From Nocardioides psychrotolerans (GTDB taxonomy: Bacteria; Actinomycetota; Actinomycetes; Propionibacteriales; Nocardioidaceae): 64,000 nucleotides of DNA. The translations under genes were made by a program, and so were the position numbers. Position 1 is the stretch's first letter; every line of letters starts with the position of its first letter. This document shows positions 8,000-14,169 of the stretch, one piece after another. The DNA is taken from the NCBI RefSeq assembly GCF_900113685.1, contig NZ_FOQG01000001.1:186001-250000 (forward strand), written 5' to 3'. The notes under the pieces are model-generated. The model had not been told where the DNA came from. It made no database searches and was given only the letters and a program-made list of their open reading frames with translations.

Positions 8000-8503
8000 A
8001 TGACACCCACGGTGCACGTCGCCGCGCTCTGGGGGTCGGGGCACCGGGCGTTCCAGCGGGCCCGGGCGGAGGCCTACCTCGCCGACGAGCTGTGCCTGTC
8101 CCGGGTGGCGCGCCTGTGCGTGCGCTGCGCCAGCCCTGGCCACGGCCGGCCGGTCCCCCTCGGCGCGAGCGACGCGGTTCACCTGAGCCTGGCCTACGCC
8201 GAGGACGTCGTGCTGGTCGCCTGGAGCAGCGCGCCGGTCGGGGTCGACGTGGAGCGAGACGCGCCCGGACGCGGCGCGGGCGACTACGGCGACCTGCGGG
8301 TCTGGACGCGCATCGAGGCCATCGTGAAGACCAGCGGCGAGGGCCTGTCTCGCGAGCCGGTCGACCTGCCGGAGCTGTGGACCTCCCCGCTCCCGCTGCC
8401 CGAGGGCTGGGTCGGCACCGTCGCGTGCGCCGTGCCGGCCGAGCTCAGCTGGCGTTCAGGGCATCCGGCGCATCGGGGAGGTCCGGCAGCTCCTCCTCGT
8501 TGA
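8000..8503 (+). CDS. Sfp-type 4'-phosphopantetheinyl transferase superfamily protein
   Basis: Predicted to load a phosphopantetheine arm from CoA onto a carrier domain. The 167-aa protein shows the superfamily motifs in order: a Cys-containing N-terminal stretch ending GHGRPV, HLSLAYAEDVVLVAW, the Mg-binding GVDVER, and WTRIEAIVKTSGEGL, equivalent to W(T/S)xKEAxxK. It is shorter than Sfp (about 220 aa), with a reduced C-terminal part. ATG 8000 is the earliest start because an in-frame TGA lies two codons upstream. Its last 59 bp overlap the end of the M1 peptidase gene on the other strand. The obvious client is the carrier domain of the adjacent synthetase; that link is inferred from position. 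Confidence 0.85.
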   Translation: MTPTVHVAALWGSGHRAFQRARAEAYLADELCLSRVARLCVRCASPGHGRPVPLGASDAVHLSLAYAEDVVLVAWSSAPVGVDVERDAPGRGAGDYGDLRVWTRIEAIVKTSGEGLSREPVDLPELWTSPLPLPEGWVGTVACAVPAELSWRSGHPAHRGGPAAPPR

Positions 8504-9809
8504 GCCACTGCGCGAAGAGGGCGTCGACGGCCTCGCCCGTGCGGGCCGGGACGTGGGCCGCGACGTGGGCCACGAAGTCGGCGGTGCTGACCGTGCCGCC
8601 ACGGTGATCGGCTACCCAGGCCCGCAGCAGCCCGAAGAAGGCGTCGTCGTCGCCGACAGTGAGCCGCAGCGCGTGGAGGGTGAGGGCACCGCGCTTGTAG
8701 ACACGGTCGTCGAACATCAGCGCCGGCCCGGGATCGGAGAGCAGCAGGTCCTGGTCGAGCCCGGCCAGGCGCTGGTGGTGGACGCGGGCGTGCACGTCCG
8801 CGGTGTCGCCGCCCGACCGCTCCGACCACAGCCACTCTGCGTAGCAGGCGAAGCCCTCGTGCAGCCAGATGTCGCGCCAGGCGCCGAGCGTCACGGTGTT
8901 GCCGAACCACTGGTGCGCCAGCTCGTGGGCGACCAGCCGCACCGACTCCCACTCCGAGGTGAGGAAGTTGCGACCGAAGGTCGAGAGGCTCTGCGACTCC
9001 AGGGGGATCTCGAGGTCGTCGGCGGTGACAACGACCGAGTAGAGCGGGAACGGGTAGTCGCCGAAGAGCTCGGCGAAGGCGGCCAGCATCTCGGGTTGGC
9101 GGCCGAACGCGTCCTCGACGCCGCTGCCCGCGTCGTGGGGGACGACGGCGTACATCGGGACGATCGCGTCGAGCTCACGGACGTCGTAGCGCCCGATCTG
9201 GACGGTGGCGAGGTAGGTCGCCATCGGCTCGTCCTGGAGGTAGGTCCAGGTGACCGAGCTGCCGTGGCGCCTGCGGCTGCCGAGGATGCCGTTGGCGACG
9301 ACGTGGTAGTCGGGGTGGGCGGTCACCGAGATGGCGTAGGAGGCCTTGTCGTCGGGCCGGTCGTTGCAGGGGAACCAGGTCGGGGCGCCGTGCGGCTGAC
9401 CCGCGACGATGACACCGTCGGTCAGCTCCTCCCAGCCGGCGTCGCCGTGGTGCTTCTCGATCAGCGGGCGCGGGTTGCCGGCGTAGGTGACGACCATCGA
9501 GAAGGCCGCGCCCTGCTTGAGGGGCGTGGCCAGCGTGACGACCAGCCGGCCCTCGCGGGTGCGGAACTTCGCCGGCGCACGGCCGTCGACCTTGACCTTG
9601 GTGACGTCGAGGTGGGCGAGGTCGAGGACCACGCGGGTGAGGTCGTCGACGGCGACGGCGTCGATGGTCGAGGTGGCGCGGAGGCGGTTGCCGTCGATGT
9701 CGTAGACGAGGTCGAGGGCGTAGTGGGTGGCGCTCCAGGCGGGGTCGCCGTGGCCGGGCAGGTAGGGGTCGGCGGTGGGCAGGTCGGAGCTGAGTCCGGG
9801 CACCTTCAC
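8445..9809 (-). CDS. M1-family zinc metallopeptidase
   Basis: A 454-aa gluzincin peptidase. The zinc site is HELAH at residues 295-299, with the third ligand Glu318 in LHEGFACYAEWL; the N-terminal beta domain spans about 20-200. Where classical M1 aminopeptidases have GAMEN, this protein has EIPLESQ (about 267-273), a variant I associate with actinobacterial M1 homologues. There is no evident signal peptide. The GTG start overlaps the stop of the synthetase gene (GTGA), indicating translational coupling. Next to a poly-amino-acid synthetase it may hydrolyse the product, but substrate specificity is not visible in the sequence. Confidence 0.9.
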   Translation of the reverse strand: MKVPGLSSDLPTADPYLPGHGDPAWSATHYALDLVYDIDGNRLRATSTIDAVAVDDLTRVVLDLAHLDVTKVKVDGRAPAKFRTREGRLVVTLATPLKQGAAFSMVVTYAGNPRPLIEKHHGDAGWEELTDGVIVAGQPHGAPTWFPCNDRPDDKASYAISVTAHPDYHVVANGILGSRRRHGSSVTWTYLQDEPMATYLATVQIGRYDVRELDAIVPMYAVVPHDAGSGVEDAFGRQPEMLAAFAELFGDYPFPLYSVVVTADDLEIPLESQSLSTFGRNFLTSEWESVRLVAHELAHQWFGNTVTLGAWRDIWLHEGFACYAEWLWSERSGGDTADVHARVHHQRLAGLDQDLLLSDPGPALMFDDRVYKRGALTLHALRLTVGDDDAFFGLLRAWVADHRGGTVSTADFVAHVAAHVPARTGEAVDALFAQWLNEEELPDLPDAPDALNAS

Positions 9810-12800
9810 CGGCCGATCACCCAGGGGCCGATGGGGTTGCCGATCCAGGTCGTCTTGTCGGGCAACGACTCGCCCCTCATCACCAGTGACACGGGACCGA
9901 CCGTAGCGTGCCGCCCGAGCGTCGCCGCTGGGAGGATGACGCTGTTGGGCCCCAGCGTGGAGCCGCGCCGCAGCGTCACGGTGTCCATGCTGAGCATCCG
10001 GTCGTGGAACAGGTGGGTCTGCAGGACGCTGCCCTGGTTGACCGTCACCCCGTCACCGAGCTCCACCAGGTCGGTCTCGGGCAGCCAGTAGGTCTCGCAC
10101 CACACGCCGCGCCCGATCCGCGCCCCCATCGCGCGGAACCAGACGTTGATCAGGGGGGTGCCGGCGACGGCCCGGGCGAACCACGGTGCCGCGAGGACCT
10201 CCACGAACGTGTCCGCCAGCTCGTTGCGCCACACGAACGAGCTCCACAGCGGGTGGGCGCCCGGGCGCACGCGGCCGACGAGCAGCCACTTGGCGGCCAC
10301 CGTGACGGTCGCGGCGAGCAGGCCGCCGACGGCGAGGACGGGACCTGCCAGGAGCACCGCGACGACGACCCCGGAGCCGTCCAGCAGGGCGACGAGCACG
10401 AGGGCCGTGACGGCGGTGAGGCCCATCGCGAGCATCACGGGCAGCAGCCGGCAGAGCTCGACCGCGGCGCGCAGCACCTTCAGTCGCGTCGGTGGGTCGT
10501 AGGTGCGGCCGGCGTCTGCGGTCTCGGGAGCGCGACGCAGGGGCGCCGGCGGGCTGCCCAGCCAGGACTCCCCCGCCTTGGCCGACTTGCGGCGGGGTGC
10601 AGCCGAGAGCACCGCCACCAGGGATGCCTTGGGCACCTTACGACCGGGTGCGGCCATCCCGGAGTTGCCGACGAACGCGCGCTTGCCGACCTTGACCCGC
10701 TCGACCCGCAGCCAGCCCCCGCCCAGCTCGTAGCCGCCGATGAGGGTGTCGTCGGCCAGGAACGCCTGGTCGTTGACGGTCGTCAGCGACGGCACCATCA
10801 GCACCGTCGAAGCCTCCACCCCGTGGCCGATGCGGGCCCCGAGCCGGCGCAGCCACCAGGGGGTCAGCTGGGAGGAGTAGAGCGGGAAGAGCCACGTGCG
10901 AGCGTCGTCGAGCACGCGGACGGTGGCCCACACCGCGAGACCCTGGCGGCTGCGGACCGGGTGGACGCCGGTGGTGATCGCGCGTGCGGCGACCCGCACG
11001 ACGGCCCACACCAGCAGCGCCAGCACCGCGAGCCCCAGCACCGTCGCGAGCGGGAGCCACACGACCAGCCCCAGCGCCTCGTCGTAGGACGTGGGGCGGG
11101 TGAGGGCGAGCAGCGGTGCCACGACTGCCACGACAGCGAGCACCGGCAGCAGGGCGAGCAGCGTCGCGACCGCGCCGTAGGCCAGGAGCCACGCCGGGTG
11201 GTCGGCCGGCTGACCCGCCCACGGGCCGCGGGCCGCGCCGGCGACGCGGACGGCGGGCGAGCCGGACCAGTATTCGCCGGCGGGGACCGGACCGAAGACC
11301 GACGAGCCCGGGGCGACCTCGGCGTCGTCGCCGATGTCGGCCCCCGGGCACATCATCGAGCGGGCGCCGAGGCGGGCCCGGGCCCCGACCCGGATGTGCC
11401 CGACGTGGAGGACGTCACCGTCGATCCAGTAGCCGCTCAGGTCGACCTCGGGCTCGATCGAGCAGCCCTCGCCCAGGGTCAGCCAACCGGTGACCGGCGG
11501 CAGGCTGTGCAGGTCGACGTCGGGACCGACAGCGGCGCCGAGGAGTCGTGCGTAGAGCTTGACGAAGGGTGCTCCGGCCAGTCCGGTCGCGCCGAGCTCG
11601 TCGACGAGCCGGTTGGCCAGCCAGAGGCGCAGGTGGGCCTTGCCACCGCGCGGGTGGTCCCCGGGCGTGACCGGCCGCAGCAGGAGGCGACAACCTGCCG
11701 CCGCGAGAAGCATGCGGCCCGGGGAGCTGACGAACAGCACCCACGACACGGCGACCAGCGCCCACGGGAGCCGAGGCAGCCAGTCGACGCCGAGGAGGGA
11801 CGAGGCGTGGCAACCGAGGGCGATCCAGGTCAGCCAGCGCGGCCCGGCCACGGCGCGCAGCGCCAGCGTGGCGACGACCTGGCCGGCCTGGGTCTTGACC
11901 GGGATCGGCGAGACGGTGCGCTCGGAGACCGGGCCGGCCTCCTTCATCTGGTCGAGGTAGGCCGCCATGGCACCGAGCGTCGGCTTCTCGTAGACGTCGC
12001 CCACCGCGACGTCGGGGAAGCGCGCGCGCAACCGCGACACCATCTGGGCCGCGGTGAGGCTGCCGCCGCCCTCGTCGAAGAAGTCGGCCTCCGGCCCGCT
12101 CACGCTGGCGCCGAGGACGTCGTGCCACAGGGTGGCGATCCAAGCGGCGGTGCCCTCGAGCCCGGCCGGCGCCTGGTCGGGGGCACCCAGCGGCCACGGC
12201 AGCGCGTCGCGGTCGACCTTGCCGGAGGTGCGCGTCGGGAGGGCATCGACGACGGCGAGGCGTGGCACGAGGGCGGCCGGCAGGTCGCGGCGTAGTCGCT
12301 CCAGCGAGGCGGCCTGGTCGAAGGGAGGGTCGGCGGTCGGGTCGATAGCGAGGTAGCCGACGAGGAGCTGGTTGCCGGCGGCCGAGCGTCGTACGGCGGC
12401 GGCGGCCGCGCCGACGCCCGGCAGGCCGAGGAGCGCGCTGTCGATCTCGCCGAGCTCGATGCGTCGGCCGCCGAGCTTGACCTGGTCGTCGGCGCGGCCG
12501 CCGAAGAGCAGCCCCTCGTGGTCGAGCACCACGAGGTCGCCCGAGCGGTAGGCCCGGTCCCAGCCCAGGCTGGGCATCGCGGCGTACTTCTCCGCGTCTT
12601 TGGCGGGATCGAGGTAGCGCGCCAGGCCCACTCCCCCGATGATCAGCTCGCCGGTCTGCCCGGGCTCGACCGGCACGCCGGCGGCGTCGACGACCGCGAG
12701 GTCCCAGCCGTCGAGCGGCAGGCCGATGCGCACGGGGCCCTCGCCGGTGAGCAGCGCCCCGCAGGCGACGACGGTGGCCTCGGTGGGTCCGTAGGTGTTC

Positions 12801-13720
12801 CACACCTCGCGACCCGGGGCGACCAAGCGGGCGACGAGCTCGGCCGGGCAGGCCTCGCCGCCCATGATCAGCAGACGCACCCGCTCGAGCGCCTCGGCGG
12901 GCCACAGGGCGACCAGGGTCGGGACCGTGGAGACGACCGTGACCCGGTTGGCGACCAGCCACGGCCCCACGTCGATCCCGCTGCGCACCAGGGCGCGCGG
13001 CGCCGGCACCAGGCAGGCGCCGTAGCGCCAGGCCAACCACATCTCCTCGCAGGAGGCGTCGAAGGCGACCGACAGGCCGGCCATGACCCGGTCGCCGACG
13101 CCGAGTGGCTCAGCCTGGAGGAACATCCGCGACTCCGCGTCCACGAAGGCCGCGGCGCTGCGGTGGGTGACGGCGACGCCCTTGGGGGTACCCGTCGAGC
13201 CGGAGGTGAAGATGACCCAGGCGTCGTCCTCGAGGCCTGGCTCCTCGGTCTCGCGAGCGGGGCCGGGACGGCGCACGGCGAGGATGAGGTCGTTGCCGAC
13301 GACCGCGGCCACGTCGGCCTCTTTGAAGACGAGGCGGGCCCGCTCGTCGGGGTCGTCGGCGTCGACGGGGACGTAGGCGGCGCCGGCGAGGAGGATGCCC
13401 AGGACGGCGACGTAGAGGTCGCTCGTCCCGGAGCTGACCCGCACCCCGACGTTGTCACCTCGCCCGACCCCGAGGGAGTTGAGCTCGGCGGCCAGCTCGT
13501 CGGCGGCCTCCTCCAGCTCGGCATAGGTGAGGACGCCCGCACCGGCGTCGACCGCGCTGTCGTCGGAGGCCTGGGCGACCGTCTCACGGAAGATGTCCAC
13601 CAGCGTGCGGGCCGCGGGGGCCAGGTCGCCGCGCAGCAAGGGGGCGATCAGGGCCTCAGTCACCTGGGAACGTTGTCGGTCGCAGGTGAACAGCAGGTGT
13701 CGCGGCCACGGACTGGTCAC
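9806..13720 (-). CDS. Pls/PosA-type membrane non-ribosomal peptide synthetase
   Basis: Predicted to activate one amino acid and polymerise it, like epsilon-poly-L-lysine synthetase. In 1304 aa the order is: adenylation domain (about 30-510) with FTSGSTGTPKGV, NTYGPTEATV, YRSGDL and the Lys of SGKVDRDAL; a carrier domain with DFFDEGGGSLTAAQ (Ser attachment, about 560); then six or so membrane segments alternating with three soluble left-handed beta-helix (hexapeptide-repeat) blocks, the last ending GNPIGPWVIGR. No ordinary condensation or thioesterase domain is seen. This A-T-(TM/soluble)x3 layout is that of the Pls family. Aligning the core motifs gives specificity residues D-A-E-S-I-G-T-V-V-K, close to a lysine-type code as I recall it. 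GTG 13720 is chosen because it overlaps the upstream stop codon (GTGA); GTG 13663 is an alternative. Neighbours are an M1 peptidase and an Sfp-type PPTase. Confidence 0.88.
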   Translation of the reverse strand: MTSPWPRHLLFTCDRQRSQVTEALIAPLLRGDLAPAARTLVDIFRETVAQASDDSAVDAGAGVLTYAELEEAADELAAELNSLGVGRGDNVGVRVSSGTSDLYVAVLGILLAGAAYVPVDADDPDERARLVFKEADVAAVVGNDLILAVRRPGPARETEEPGLEDDAWVIFTSGSTGTPKGVAVTHRSAAAFVDAESRMFLQAEPLGVGDRVMAGLSVAFDASCEEMWLAWRYGACLVPAPRALVRSGIDVGPWLVANRVTVVSTVPTLVALWPAEALERVRLLIMGGEACPAELVARLVAPGREVWNTYGPTEATVVACGALLTGEGPVRIGLPLDGWDLAVVDAAGVPVEPGQTGELIIGGVGLARYLDPAKDAEKYAAMPSLGWDRAYRSGDLVVLDHEGLLFGGRADDQVKLGGRRIELGEIDSALLGLPGVGAAAAAVRRSAAGNQLLVGYLAIDPTADPPFDQAASLERLRRDLPAALVPRLAVVDALPTRTSGKVDRDALPWPLGAPDQAPAGLEGTAAWIATLWHDVLGASVSGPEADFFDEGGGSLTAAQMVSRLRARFPDVAVGDVYEKPTLGAMAAYLDQMKEAGPVSERTVSPIPVKTQAGQVVATLALRAVAGPRWLTWIALGCHASSLLGVDWLPRLPWALVAVSWVLFVSSPGRMLLAAAGCRLLLRPVTPGDHPRGGKAHLRLWLANRLVDELGATGLAGAPFVKLYARLLGAAVGPDVDLHSLPPVTGWLTLGEGCSIEPEVDLSGYWIDGDVLHVGHIRVGARARLGARSMMCPGADIGDDAEVAPGSSVFGPVPAGEYWSGSPAVRVAGAARGPWAGQPADHPAWLLAYGAVATLLALLPVLAVVAVVAPLLALTRPTSYDEALGLVVWLPLATVLGLAVLALLVWAVVRVAARAITTGVHPVRSRQGLAVWATVRVLDDARTWLFPLYSSQLTPWWLRRLGARIGHGVEASTVLMVPSLTTVNDQAFLADDTLIGGYELGGGWLRVERVKVGKRAFVGNSGMAAPGRKVPKASLVAVLSAAPRRKSAKAGESWLGSPPAPLRRAPETADAGRTYDPPTRLKVLRAAVELCRLLPVMLAMGLTAVTALVLVALLDGSGVVVAVLLAGPVLAVGGLLAATVTVAAKWLLVGRVRPGAHPLWSSFVWRNELADTFVEVLAAPWFARAVAGTPLINVWFRAMGARIGRGVWCETYWLPETDLVELGDGVTVNQGSVLQTHLFHDRMLSMDTVTLRRGSTLGPNSVILPAATLGRHATVGPVSLVMRGESLPDKTTWIGNPIGPWVIGR

Positions 13721-14169
13721 GTCGGGGCATGCGTCACCCCGTCCCGCAGGGCGCCGGCAAGGACGCCGAAGTCGCCGGCCGTGACCTCGAGGAGCCCACG
13801 GCGGAACGGCAGGCCCCACCTCTGCTCGTCGGTGACGAACCCGAGCATGGGGATGAGCGGGCGGATCGGCACCCGGCCCACCTCCTCGAAGGCGACGCGG
13901 CGGCGCCACGGGTGGAAGTCGTCGCCCATCTGCACCTGGTAAGGCTCGTCGTCGGCGATCTCCCCGAGCGCCGTGAGCTGCTGGAGGGTGACCTGGGAGC
14001 CCATCGAGGGGCGGGGCGAGTAGAACGCGATCAGGTCGCCGCGACCCAGCGCCCGCAGGCGCGTGTCACGCCCGTGGTCGGCCTGGGTGAACCCGCCCTC
14101 GACGCCGAGCAGGACGTGCTCGAGGTTGATCGTGCTGACCCAGTAGCGGCGGGTGTCGAGGTGCGTCAT
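13717..14169 (-). CDS. EVE-domain (UPF0310) protein
   Basis: A 150-aa protein matching the UPF0310/EVE fold, related to PUA domains and thought to bind modified bases or RNA. Visible landmarks are RYWVSTINLEHVLLGVEGGF at the N-terminus, LGRGDLIAFYSPR, QVQMGDDFHPWRRRV and WGLPFRRGLLEV near the end. Its stop codon overlaps the GTG start of the synthetase gene, so it sits in the same transcription unit. A functional tie to that enzyme is not evident; it may be a passenger. Confidence 0.85.
   Translation of the reverse strand: MTHLDTRRYWVSTINLEHVLLGVEGGFTQADHGRDTRLRALGRGDLIAFYSPRPSMGSQVTLQQLTALGEIADDEPYQVQMGDDFHPWRRRVAFEEVGRVPIRPLIPMLGFVTDEQRWGLPFRRGLLEVTAGDFGVLAGALRDGVTHAPT

Follow-up and report, generated by a model that had tools for sequence, protein, structure and literature searches.

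Does Nocardioides psychrotolerans carry the genes for a homopolymer of an amino acid and, if so, which signal would switch them on? The question is raised by a stretch of 64,000 nucleotides (nt) from contig NZ_FOQG01000001.1 (positions 186,001 to 250,000; henceforth the window), in which three genes at window positions 8000-13663 all have open frames. They encode a synthetase of the Pls family (pls), an M1 peptidase and an Sfp-type 4'-phosphopantetheinyl transferase (PPTase). An earlier reading made from the letters alone (the sequence-only reading) had taken them for a self-contained set; we confirm the genes, and the comparisons below support that interpretation within limits. The locus is another instance of a known pls-peptidase gene set, in a genus for which no report was found. 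Its newest part is the promoter, which the sequence-only reading had missed: a PHO-box-like repeat and a -10 element precede a GTG start that is predicted to be leaderless. We consider it probable that the locus encodes an intact Pls-type synthetase predicted to make epsilon-poly-lysine, together with a coupled M1 peptidase and a priming PPTase, and that pls and the M1 gene are likely switched by PhoP through this promoter. Family membership, domains, pocket residues, gene overlap, co-occurrence and the conserved promoter, all observed in the sequences, carry this reading.

Synthetase architecture and predicted substrate

The pls gene (9806..13663, minus strand, as are its domains, its promoter and the peptidase gene) encodes a predicted epsilon-poly-L-lysine synthetase of 1285 amino acids (aa), with a GTG start placed at 13663 because of the conserved promoter geometry described below. 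Its C-terminal half scores 681.4 bits against TIGR02353 ("Pls/PosA family non-ribosomal peptide synthetase"), for which the curated cut-off is 423.1. A Pfam scan at E 0.1 recovered AMP-binding with its C-terminal domain, PP-binding, hexapeptide repeats and one sub-threshold domain of unknown function, and found no condensation or thioesterase family, as expected of a single adenylation-thiolation (A-T) module. The adenylation (A) domain lies at 12185..13624 (placed by identity to PDB 7wew) and the thiolation, or carrier, domain at 11954..12142 (PF00550, 47.9 bits; attachment serine in GGGSL, read from the sequence). In the C-terminal part (9830..11881) a unit of long hydrophobic helices and a left-handed beta-helix block recurs three times, and the AlphaFold2 model of the synthetase (pLDDT 84, pTM 0.88) contains three repeats in which long helices precede a beta-helix. 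Hydropathy peaks and family membership predict that the helices cross the membrane. The sequence-only reading had drawn the same layout, a single A-T module followed by membrane segments alternating with three beta-helix blocks, and TIGR02353, the model and hydropathy all agree with it.

An unrelated acyltransferase had been named beforehand as the competing explanation of the C-terminal half, and it is ruled out by the TIGR02353 score far above the cut-off. Individual beta-helix blocks do resemble hexapeptide acyltransferases. The whole-chain Foldseek search returned block matches only, one of them with E ≤ 0.001, and the VIA-align rows cover mainly the middle block and barely test the other two by structural alignment.

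The A domain is identical at 312 of 476 aligned residues (65.5%, 618 bits) to 7wew, a solved epsilon-poly-L-lysine synthase presumably from Streptomyces albulus, and scores 182 bits against 8g95, the PosA A domain (ornithine polymer). Its pocket, DAESIGTVVK (D202, A203, E206, S245, I266, G268, T290, V298, V299 and K482), matches that of 7wew at 10 of 10 positions, and the window and the 80 related loci, 81 aligned sequences altogether, share this code without exception. Alanine at pocket position 2, present here, is described as marking lysine enzymes, with Met at this place in PosA and Phe in the PDAP synthetase (PMC10522769). We predict L-lysine as the substrate because of the identity to 7wew, the identical pocket, the code shared by 81 sequences and the alanine at position 2; the homopolymer product of the locus is likewise a prediction. 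A novel polymer class was considered and rejected, since the pocket is identical to that of a lysine enzyme.

The coupled peptidase and a compact PPTase

The second gene (8445..9809) encodes a two-domain M1 metallopeptidase (PF01433/PF17900, Peptidase_M1 and M1_N), which carries the zinc motif HEXXH...E in the form HELAHQ...WLHEGF and is a predicted PldII-type epsilon-poly-lysine hydrolase. Its GTG overlaps the TGA of pls by 4 nt (GTGA), which bears out the start-stop coupling claimed in the sequence-only reading. Residues 268-274 read IPLESQS at the place where the usual M1 motif is GxMEN; (L/I)EAQG stands there in 51 of 81 aligned pls-linked peptidases and might mark substrate specificity. 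The sequence-only reading had also mentioned hydrolases beside pls, and this arrangement is in print. The pls and pldII genes of S. albulus are described as an operon with a 4-nt overlap (PMC4361855) and as translationally coupled (PMC9223678), and pls of Corynebacterium variabile has a peptidase as its operon partner (PMC8117764).

For comparison we fetched the 80 best-matching loci out of 588 or more relatives, and the counts per 80 concern these. An M1 gene lies downstream of pls on the same strand in 80 out of 80. Its nearest possible start is at -4 nt relative to the pls stop in 48 loci, at -1 nt in 16 and within 70 nt in 75; in five it is 297-2106 nt away, and the term "next gene" is uncertain there. 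Within the genus, pls is above the cut-off in 51 of 118 Nocardioides genomes, and a close form of the M1 protein (57% identity or more) occurs in the identical set of 51, whereas M1 paralogues sharing at most 42% identity are present in pls-free genomes too. A phylum-wide sample had matches above the Pls cut-off in 14 of 296 genomes. Co-occurrence of the two genes in relatives, which the sequence-only reading had proposed to examine, supports its interpretation, as does the TIGR02353 score.

The third gene (8000..8503, plus strand) is convergent with the M1 gene and overlaps its 3' end by 59 nt. Its single sequence is below the Pfam cut-off (13.9 versus 25 bits), and of four relatives at the same place two are above it, one is below and one has no match. 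A profile of 18 sequences matches Sfp (E 1.4e-11), and the first matches of its structural model (pLDDT 88.6) are Sfp (top, E 4e-7), the aminoadipate-semialdehyde-dehydrogenase PPTase and PptT, so that the earlier assignment of an Sfp-type PPTase converging on the peptidase holds by profile and by model. The 18 sequences have 14 invariant columns, including G81, D83, E85, W102, E106 and K110. The window protein shares the fold and the GxDxE and WxxxEAxxK residues with Sfp and PptT; it differs from them in its length of only 167 aa, in the short linker between the two motifs and in a C-x2-C-x4-HG-x-P stretch that is invariant in the compact set of 18.

A convergent PPTase gene lies at the M1 end in 21 of the 80 loci and in none of the 45 loci from Mycobacteriaceae, Nocardia, Rhodococcus, Tsukamurella, Williamsia, Tomitella and Speluncibacter; in two of the 80, L005 and L029, the DNA past the M1 gene is too short for a call. 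The PPTase profile has a match in 50 of the 51 Nocardioides genomes with pls versus 14 of the 67 without (one-sided p 3e-19, shared ancestry uncorrected); no more than 29 candidates were scored in each genome, and absence is therefore not certain. In N. psychrotolerans the profile finds only the window gene, and an ACPS family search found only one other gene, AcpS-like by size and ~8 kb away. The claim that the synthetase has "its own" PPTase holds for this genome, where no other Sfp-type match was found, but the gene is adjacent to pls in only 17 of the 51 genomes. Three carrier domains in this genome pass the PF00550 cut-off, in an 89-aa frame, in Pls and in an adenylation-carrier-acyltransferase membrane protein, and because of the others Pls is a likely, though not certain, client of the window PPTase.

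Two side observations come from these searches. On contig C16 of the same genome (L083:1128-3710, plus strand), AMP-binding, PP-binding and Acyl_transf_3 domains are combined in one protein of 860 aa; the gene of this single-protein ligase-carrier-acyltransferase adjoins, by eye, an apparent ABC transporter ATPase gene. Genome G085, the sole Nocardioides genome with pls and no PPTase profile match, has a second Pls-like C-terminal domain (C14:66963-69020; 427 bits, just above the cut-off).

A PHO-box-like promoter upstream of pls

Upstream of pls lies a PHO-box-like direct repeat, CGACACC-TGCT-GTTCACC (13685..13702), followed by a predicted -10 element, CAACGT (xAxxxT; 13670..13675), 6 nt before the GTG start. 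Both are conserved in aligned promoters of relatives, and many pls upstream regions show two GTTCACC-like units spaced 11 nt, then a -10-like element and the start codon. For Streptomyces PhoP, the literature gives a PHO box built of two direct repeat units of 11 nt each (PMC7866108), with the repeat written as GTTCACCC and 9 bp separating the conserved CA pairs (PMC7244524).

We scored the box as GTTCACC-N4-GTTCACC (14 specified bases) within 290 nt upstream. At most three mismatches were found in 30 of 80 upstream regions (the window and 79 of the 80 loci; L004 was dropped because its upstream region is too short), compared with 1.27 in shuffled sequence; among stretches tiled across these loci the share was 2.2%. 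This count is post hoc, as the pattern was chosen after viewing the upstream sequences, and for this reason we scored further Nocardioides genomes. From 49 additional regions of the same genus, excluding N. psychrotolerans itself and the contig-split G108, 5 duplicates and 1 short region were dropped and 43 kept. At most three mismatches occurred in 33 of the 43 versus 0.44 expected, at most two in 17 versus 0.03, and at most four in 40 versus 4.85. The box lies 80-125 nt before the same residue in 28 of the 33 positives and is not at this usual distance in 5. Neither the box counts nor the conservation given next is corrected for shared ancestry.

For the alignment we selected 40 Nocardioides promoters with at most four mismatches and the box at the usual distance, including the window and 6 that had been dropped from the independent test. 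The second unit keeps its full GTTCACC in 37 of the 40, and the first unit is degenerate. A is found at +28 in 37 and T at +32 in all 40 (together in 37), and an RTG start follows 6 nt after the T (+39) in 29 promoters and 7 nt after it (+40) in 10. In the window, the spacing between the -10 element (13675-13670) and GTG 13663 therefore implies a leaderless transcript, and we predict that pls mRNA begins at this GTG.

The start proposed in the sequence-only reading, GTG 13720 for a 1304-aa protein, did not survive this comparison: the promoter falls inside the extension, and the equivalent in-frame stretch contains a stop codon in 3 of 10 relatives (L005, L006 and L009). The stretch is open in the other 7, so the stop codons alone are no proof against 13720, and the pls open frame reaches further still, to 13909. 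The stop of an EVE-domain gene just upstream (13717-14169, minus strand) shares 4 nt with the alternative GTG 13720, and the pls promoter follows directly after it. An EVE homologue lies ~1 kb upstream of pls in 2 of the 80 loci (L005 and L006).

The box also precedes pls in other genera, e.g., Aeromicrobium, Humibacillus and Rhodococcus. Across the genome of N. psychrotolerans, it has 65 matches with up to two mismatches versus 10 for the reversed control. The single perfect box precedes pstS (TIGR02136), a one-mismatch box precedes ppk with the same spacing to the start codon as in pls, and one-mismatch and two-mismatch boxes lie 57-114 nt upstream of a phoU match, beside a divergent histidine kinase gene. 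A stricter search for the full geometry of box, -10 element and start gave 8 matches, and its control gave none. Besides pls itself, which by construction has no mismatch, these are ppk with one mismatch and six sites with two. Two of these six keep GTTCACC, before a purple acid phosphatase gene (L173:133-1503, minus strand) and a family-4 glycosyltransferase (GT4) gene (L175:1539-2654, plus strand).

From these features we infer how the locus could work. The A domain would form lysyl-AMP and then load lysine onto the carrier arm of a synthetase likely primed by the window PPTase. The three helix/beta-helix blocks would link the carrier-bound residue, through its carboxyl, to the epsilon-amine of the next one and pass the polymer out, and the M1 peptidase would recycle or limit the product, likely by trimming or degrading the polymer. 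PhoP would bind the direct repeat over the -35 region and start the leaderless transcript at GTG 13663, and epsilon-poly-lysine production is thus predicted to be under PhoP control during phosphate starvation. We tentatively take a further step, which we consider possible rather than probable: that Nocardioides and several other actinobacteria make epsilon-poly-lysine as a polymer of phosphate starvation, with pls, read from its leaderless PHO-box promoter, in a PhoP regulon with pstS, ppk and phosphatases, a polycation that serves the phosphate economy and a peptidase that recycles lysine. If so, the polycation might, for example, gather or balance polyanions (polyphosphate, DNA and wall phosphate) or lyse neighbours.

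Alternatives and comparison with known systems

Several observations weigh against an epsilon-poly-lysine locus switched by phosphate. The window's own box alone is not significant (9 matches versus 5.3 expected), and seven of the ten best box sites in the genome were not linked to phosphate genes (Pfam was run on two of these seven neighbourhoods). No locus of Mycobacteriaceae, Nocardia or Tsukamurella has the box with at most three mismatches (0 of 32), only 2 of 13 scorable pls upstream regions in the phylum-wide sample do (15 regions, 2 of them unscored for want of an A-domain match), and it is absent from the four among these that come from large genomes, Streptomyces-like by size and score (L154-L157). 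In S. albulus the box is missing from the pls promoter as given in PMC8117764, where the best site has 5 mismatches, and pls of this species has been tied to acid pH and HrdD (PMC8506220). The M1 protein lacks a hydrophobic N-terminus by hydropathy, whereas PldII is described as lying outside the membrane (PMC9223678), and the second carrier-bearing protein of the genome could also use the PPTase.

Some of these points would fit a locus in which synthetase and peptidase act as described while the repeat is bound by a different or overlapping regulator (e.g., GlnR-like or MtrA-like) and phosphate is not the main signal. To the pH and HrdD link and the missing S. albulus box can be added the degenerate first repeat unit and a GTTTGCC/GGTAACC variant at a similar place in Nocardia promoters. 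We regard another regulator as somewhat unlikely, given that this genome has a perfect box before pstS, the pls spacing before ppk, two sites before phoU and the geometry, with 2 mismatches, at the purple acid phosphatase gene. The Nocardia variant itself reads GTTTGCC-N4-GGTAACCC, lies ~140-180 nt before the pls anchor residue (L034, L047, L050, L076 and others) and is followed by a -10-like stretch containing ACAAC, in place of the GTTCACC repeat.

The M1 protein could instead be a general-purpose aminopeptidase of the cytosol, co-transcribed with pls but inactive on the polymer. Beyond the absent hydrophobic N-terminus, its best solved relatives are two-domain zinc metalloproteases (6a8z and 6iff), which we take to be from Deinococcus. 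Inactivation of Pld and PldII reportedly left production in S. albulus unchanged (PMC8506220), although pldII repression reportedly altered chain length and tolerance (PMC9223678). We consider this role unlikely: stop-start coupling at -4 or -1 nt is possible in 64 of the 80 loci, and the close M1 form tracks pls exactly in the genus, unlike its paralogues. That another basic amino acid (ornithine, diaminobutyrate or beta-lysine) is polymerised is quite improbable. The family does make several such polymers (PMC8117764, PMC10522769) and A-domain codes are predictive only, but the pocket (in all ten residues) and the A domain (at 65.5% identity) agree with the lysine enzyme, the position-2 alanine is unlike the Met and Phe of PosA and the PDAP synthetase, and a peptidase neighbour is reported, in the comparison given in PMC8117764, for pls and not for the other three synthetases. 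A silent or decaying relic would be in keeping with C. variabile, for which no polymer was detectable and the Pls protein was unseen in the proteome (PMC8117764), and with the 67 of 118 Nocardioides genomes without a match above the Pls cut-off; open frames and the conservation of pocket, catalytic residues and promoter make it very improbable indeed.

The reading of a PhoP-switched pls locus bears on a recognised gap. Regulation and natural role of epsilon-poly-lysine are called less well understood in the coryneform Pls paper, where a missing trigger was suspected because C. variabile made no polymer in culture (PMC8117764). Phosphate-limited culture has been used for maximal epsilon-poly-lysine from S. 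albulus, the reason stated in the review being the nitrogen content of the polymer (PMC9695796). In the open-licence literature we found nothing on a PHO box together with poly-L-lysine and no report of poly-amino-acid synthetase genes as members of a Pho regulon; a term search of two key papers found neither Nocardioides nor PhoP. The sequence-only reading had called such polymer synthesis undescribed for this genus, and the titles and abstract beginnings searched in that literature likewise gave no report of a Nocardioides with poly-L-lysine synthetase or polylysine. Through a promoter that is conserved and of known type, low phosphate becomes a candidate trigger that is cheaply testable in culture, and the question reaches the 51 of 118 sampled Nocardioides genomes and the other genera with the box. 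Epsilon-poly-lysine is an antimicrobial polymer, and the window PPTase is a candidate partner for heterologous production.

Among known systems, S. albulus Pls/PldII shares with the locus the domain layout, the A-domain pocket (7wew) and a peptidase gene directly downstream with a 4-nt overlap. The likeness of the peptidases is drawn from gene place and M1 type; PldII is reported outside the membrane (PMC9223678), and the M1 protein of the locus shows no hydrophobic N-terminus by hydropathy. The Pls of C. variabile (PMC8117764) comes from a different genus. PosA, the delta-poly-L-ornithine synthetase of Acinetobacter, also combines an A-T module with C-terminal membrane helices separating three segments (PMC10522769). 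It differs in its A domain (182 bits versus 618 for Pls), in a pocket Met instead of Ala and in its single-gene operon (PMC10522769). The promoter lifts the locus above another genome-mined pls, as it provides a specific test of its switch. It is unlike the S. albulus pls promoter, which lacks the PHO-box-like repeat, and resembles the actinobacterial Pho regulon promoters of pstS and ppk in its two GTTCACC-like units 11 nt apart.

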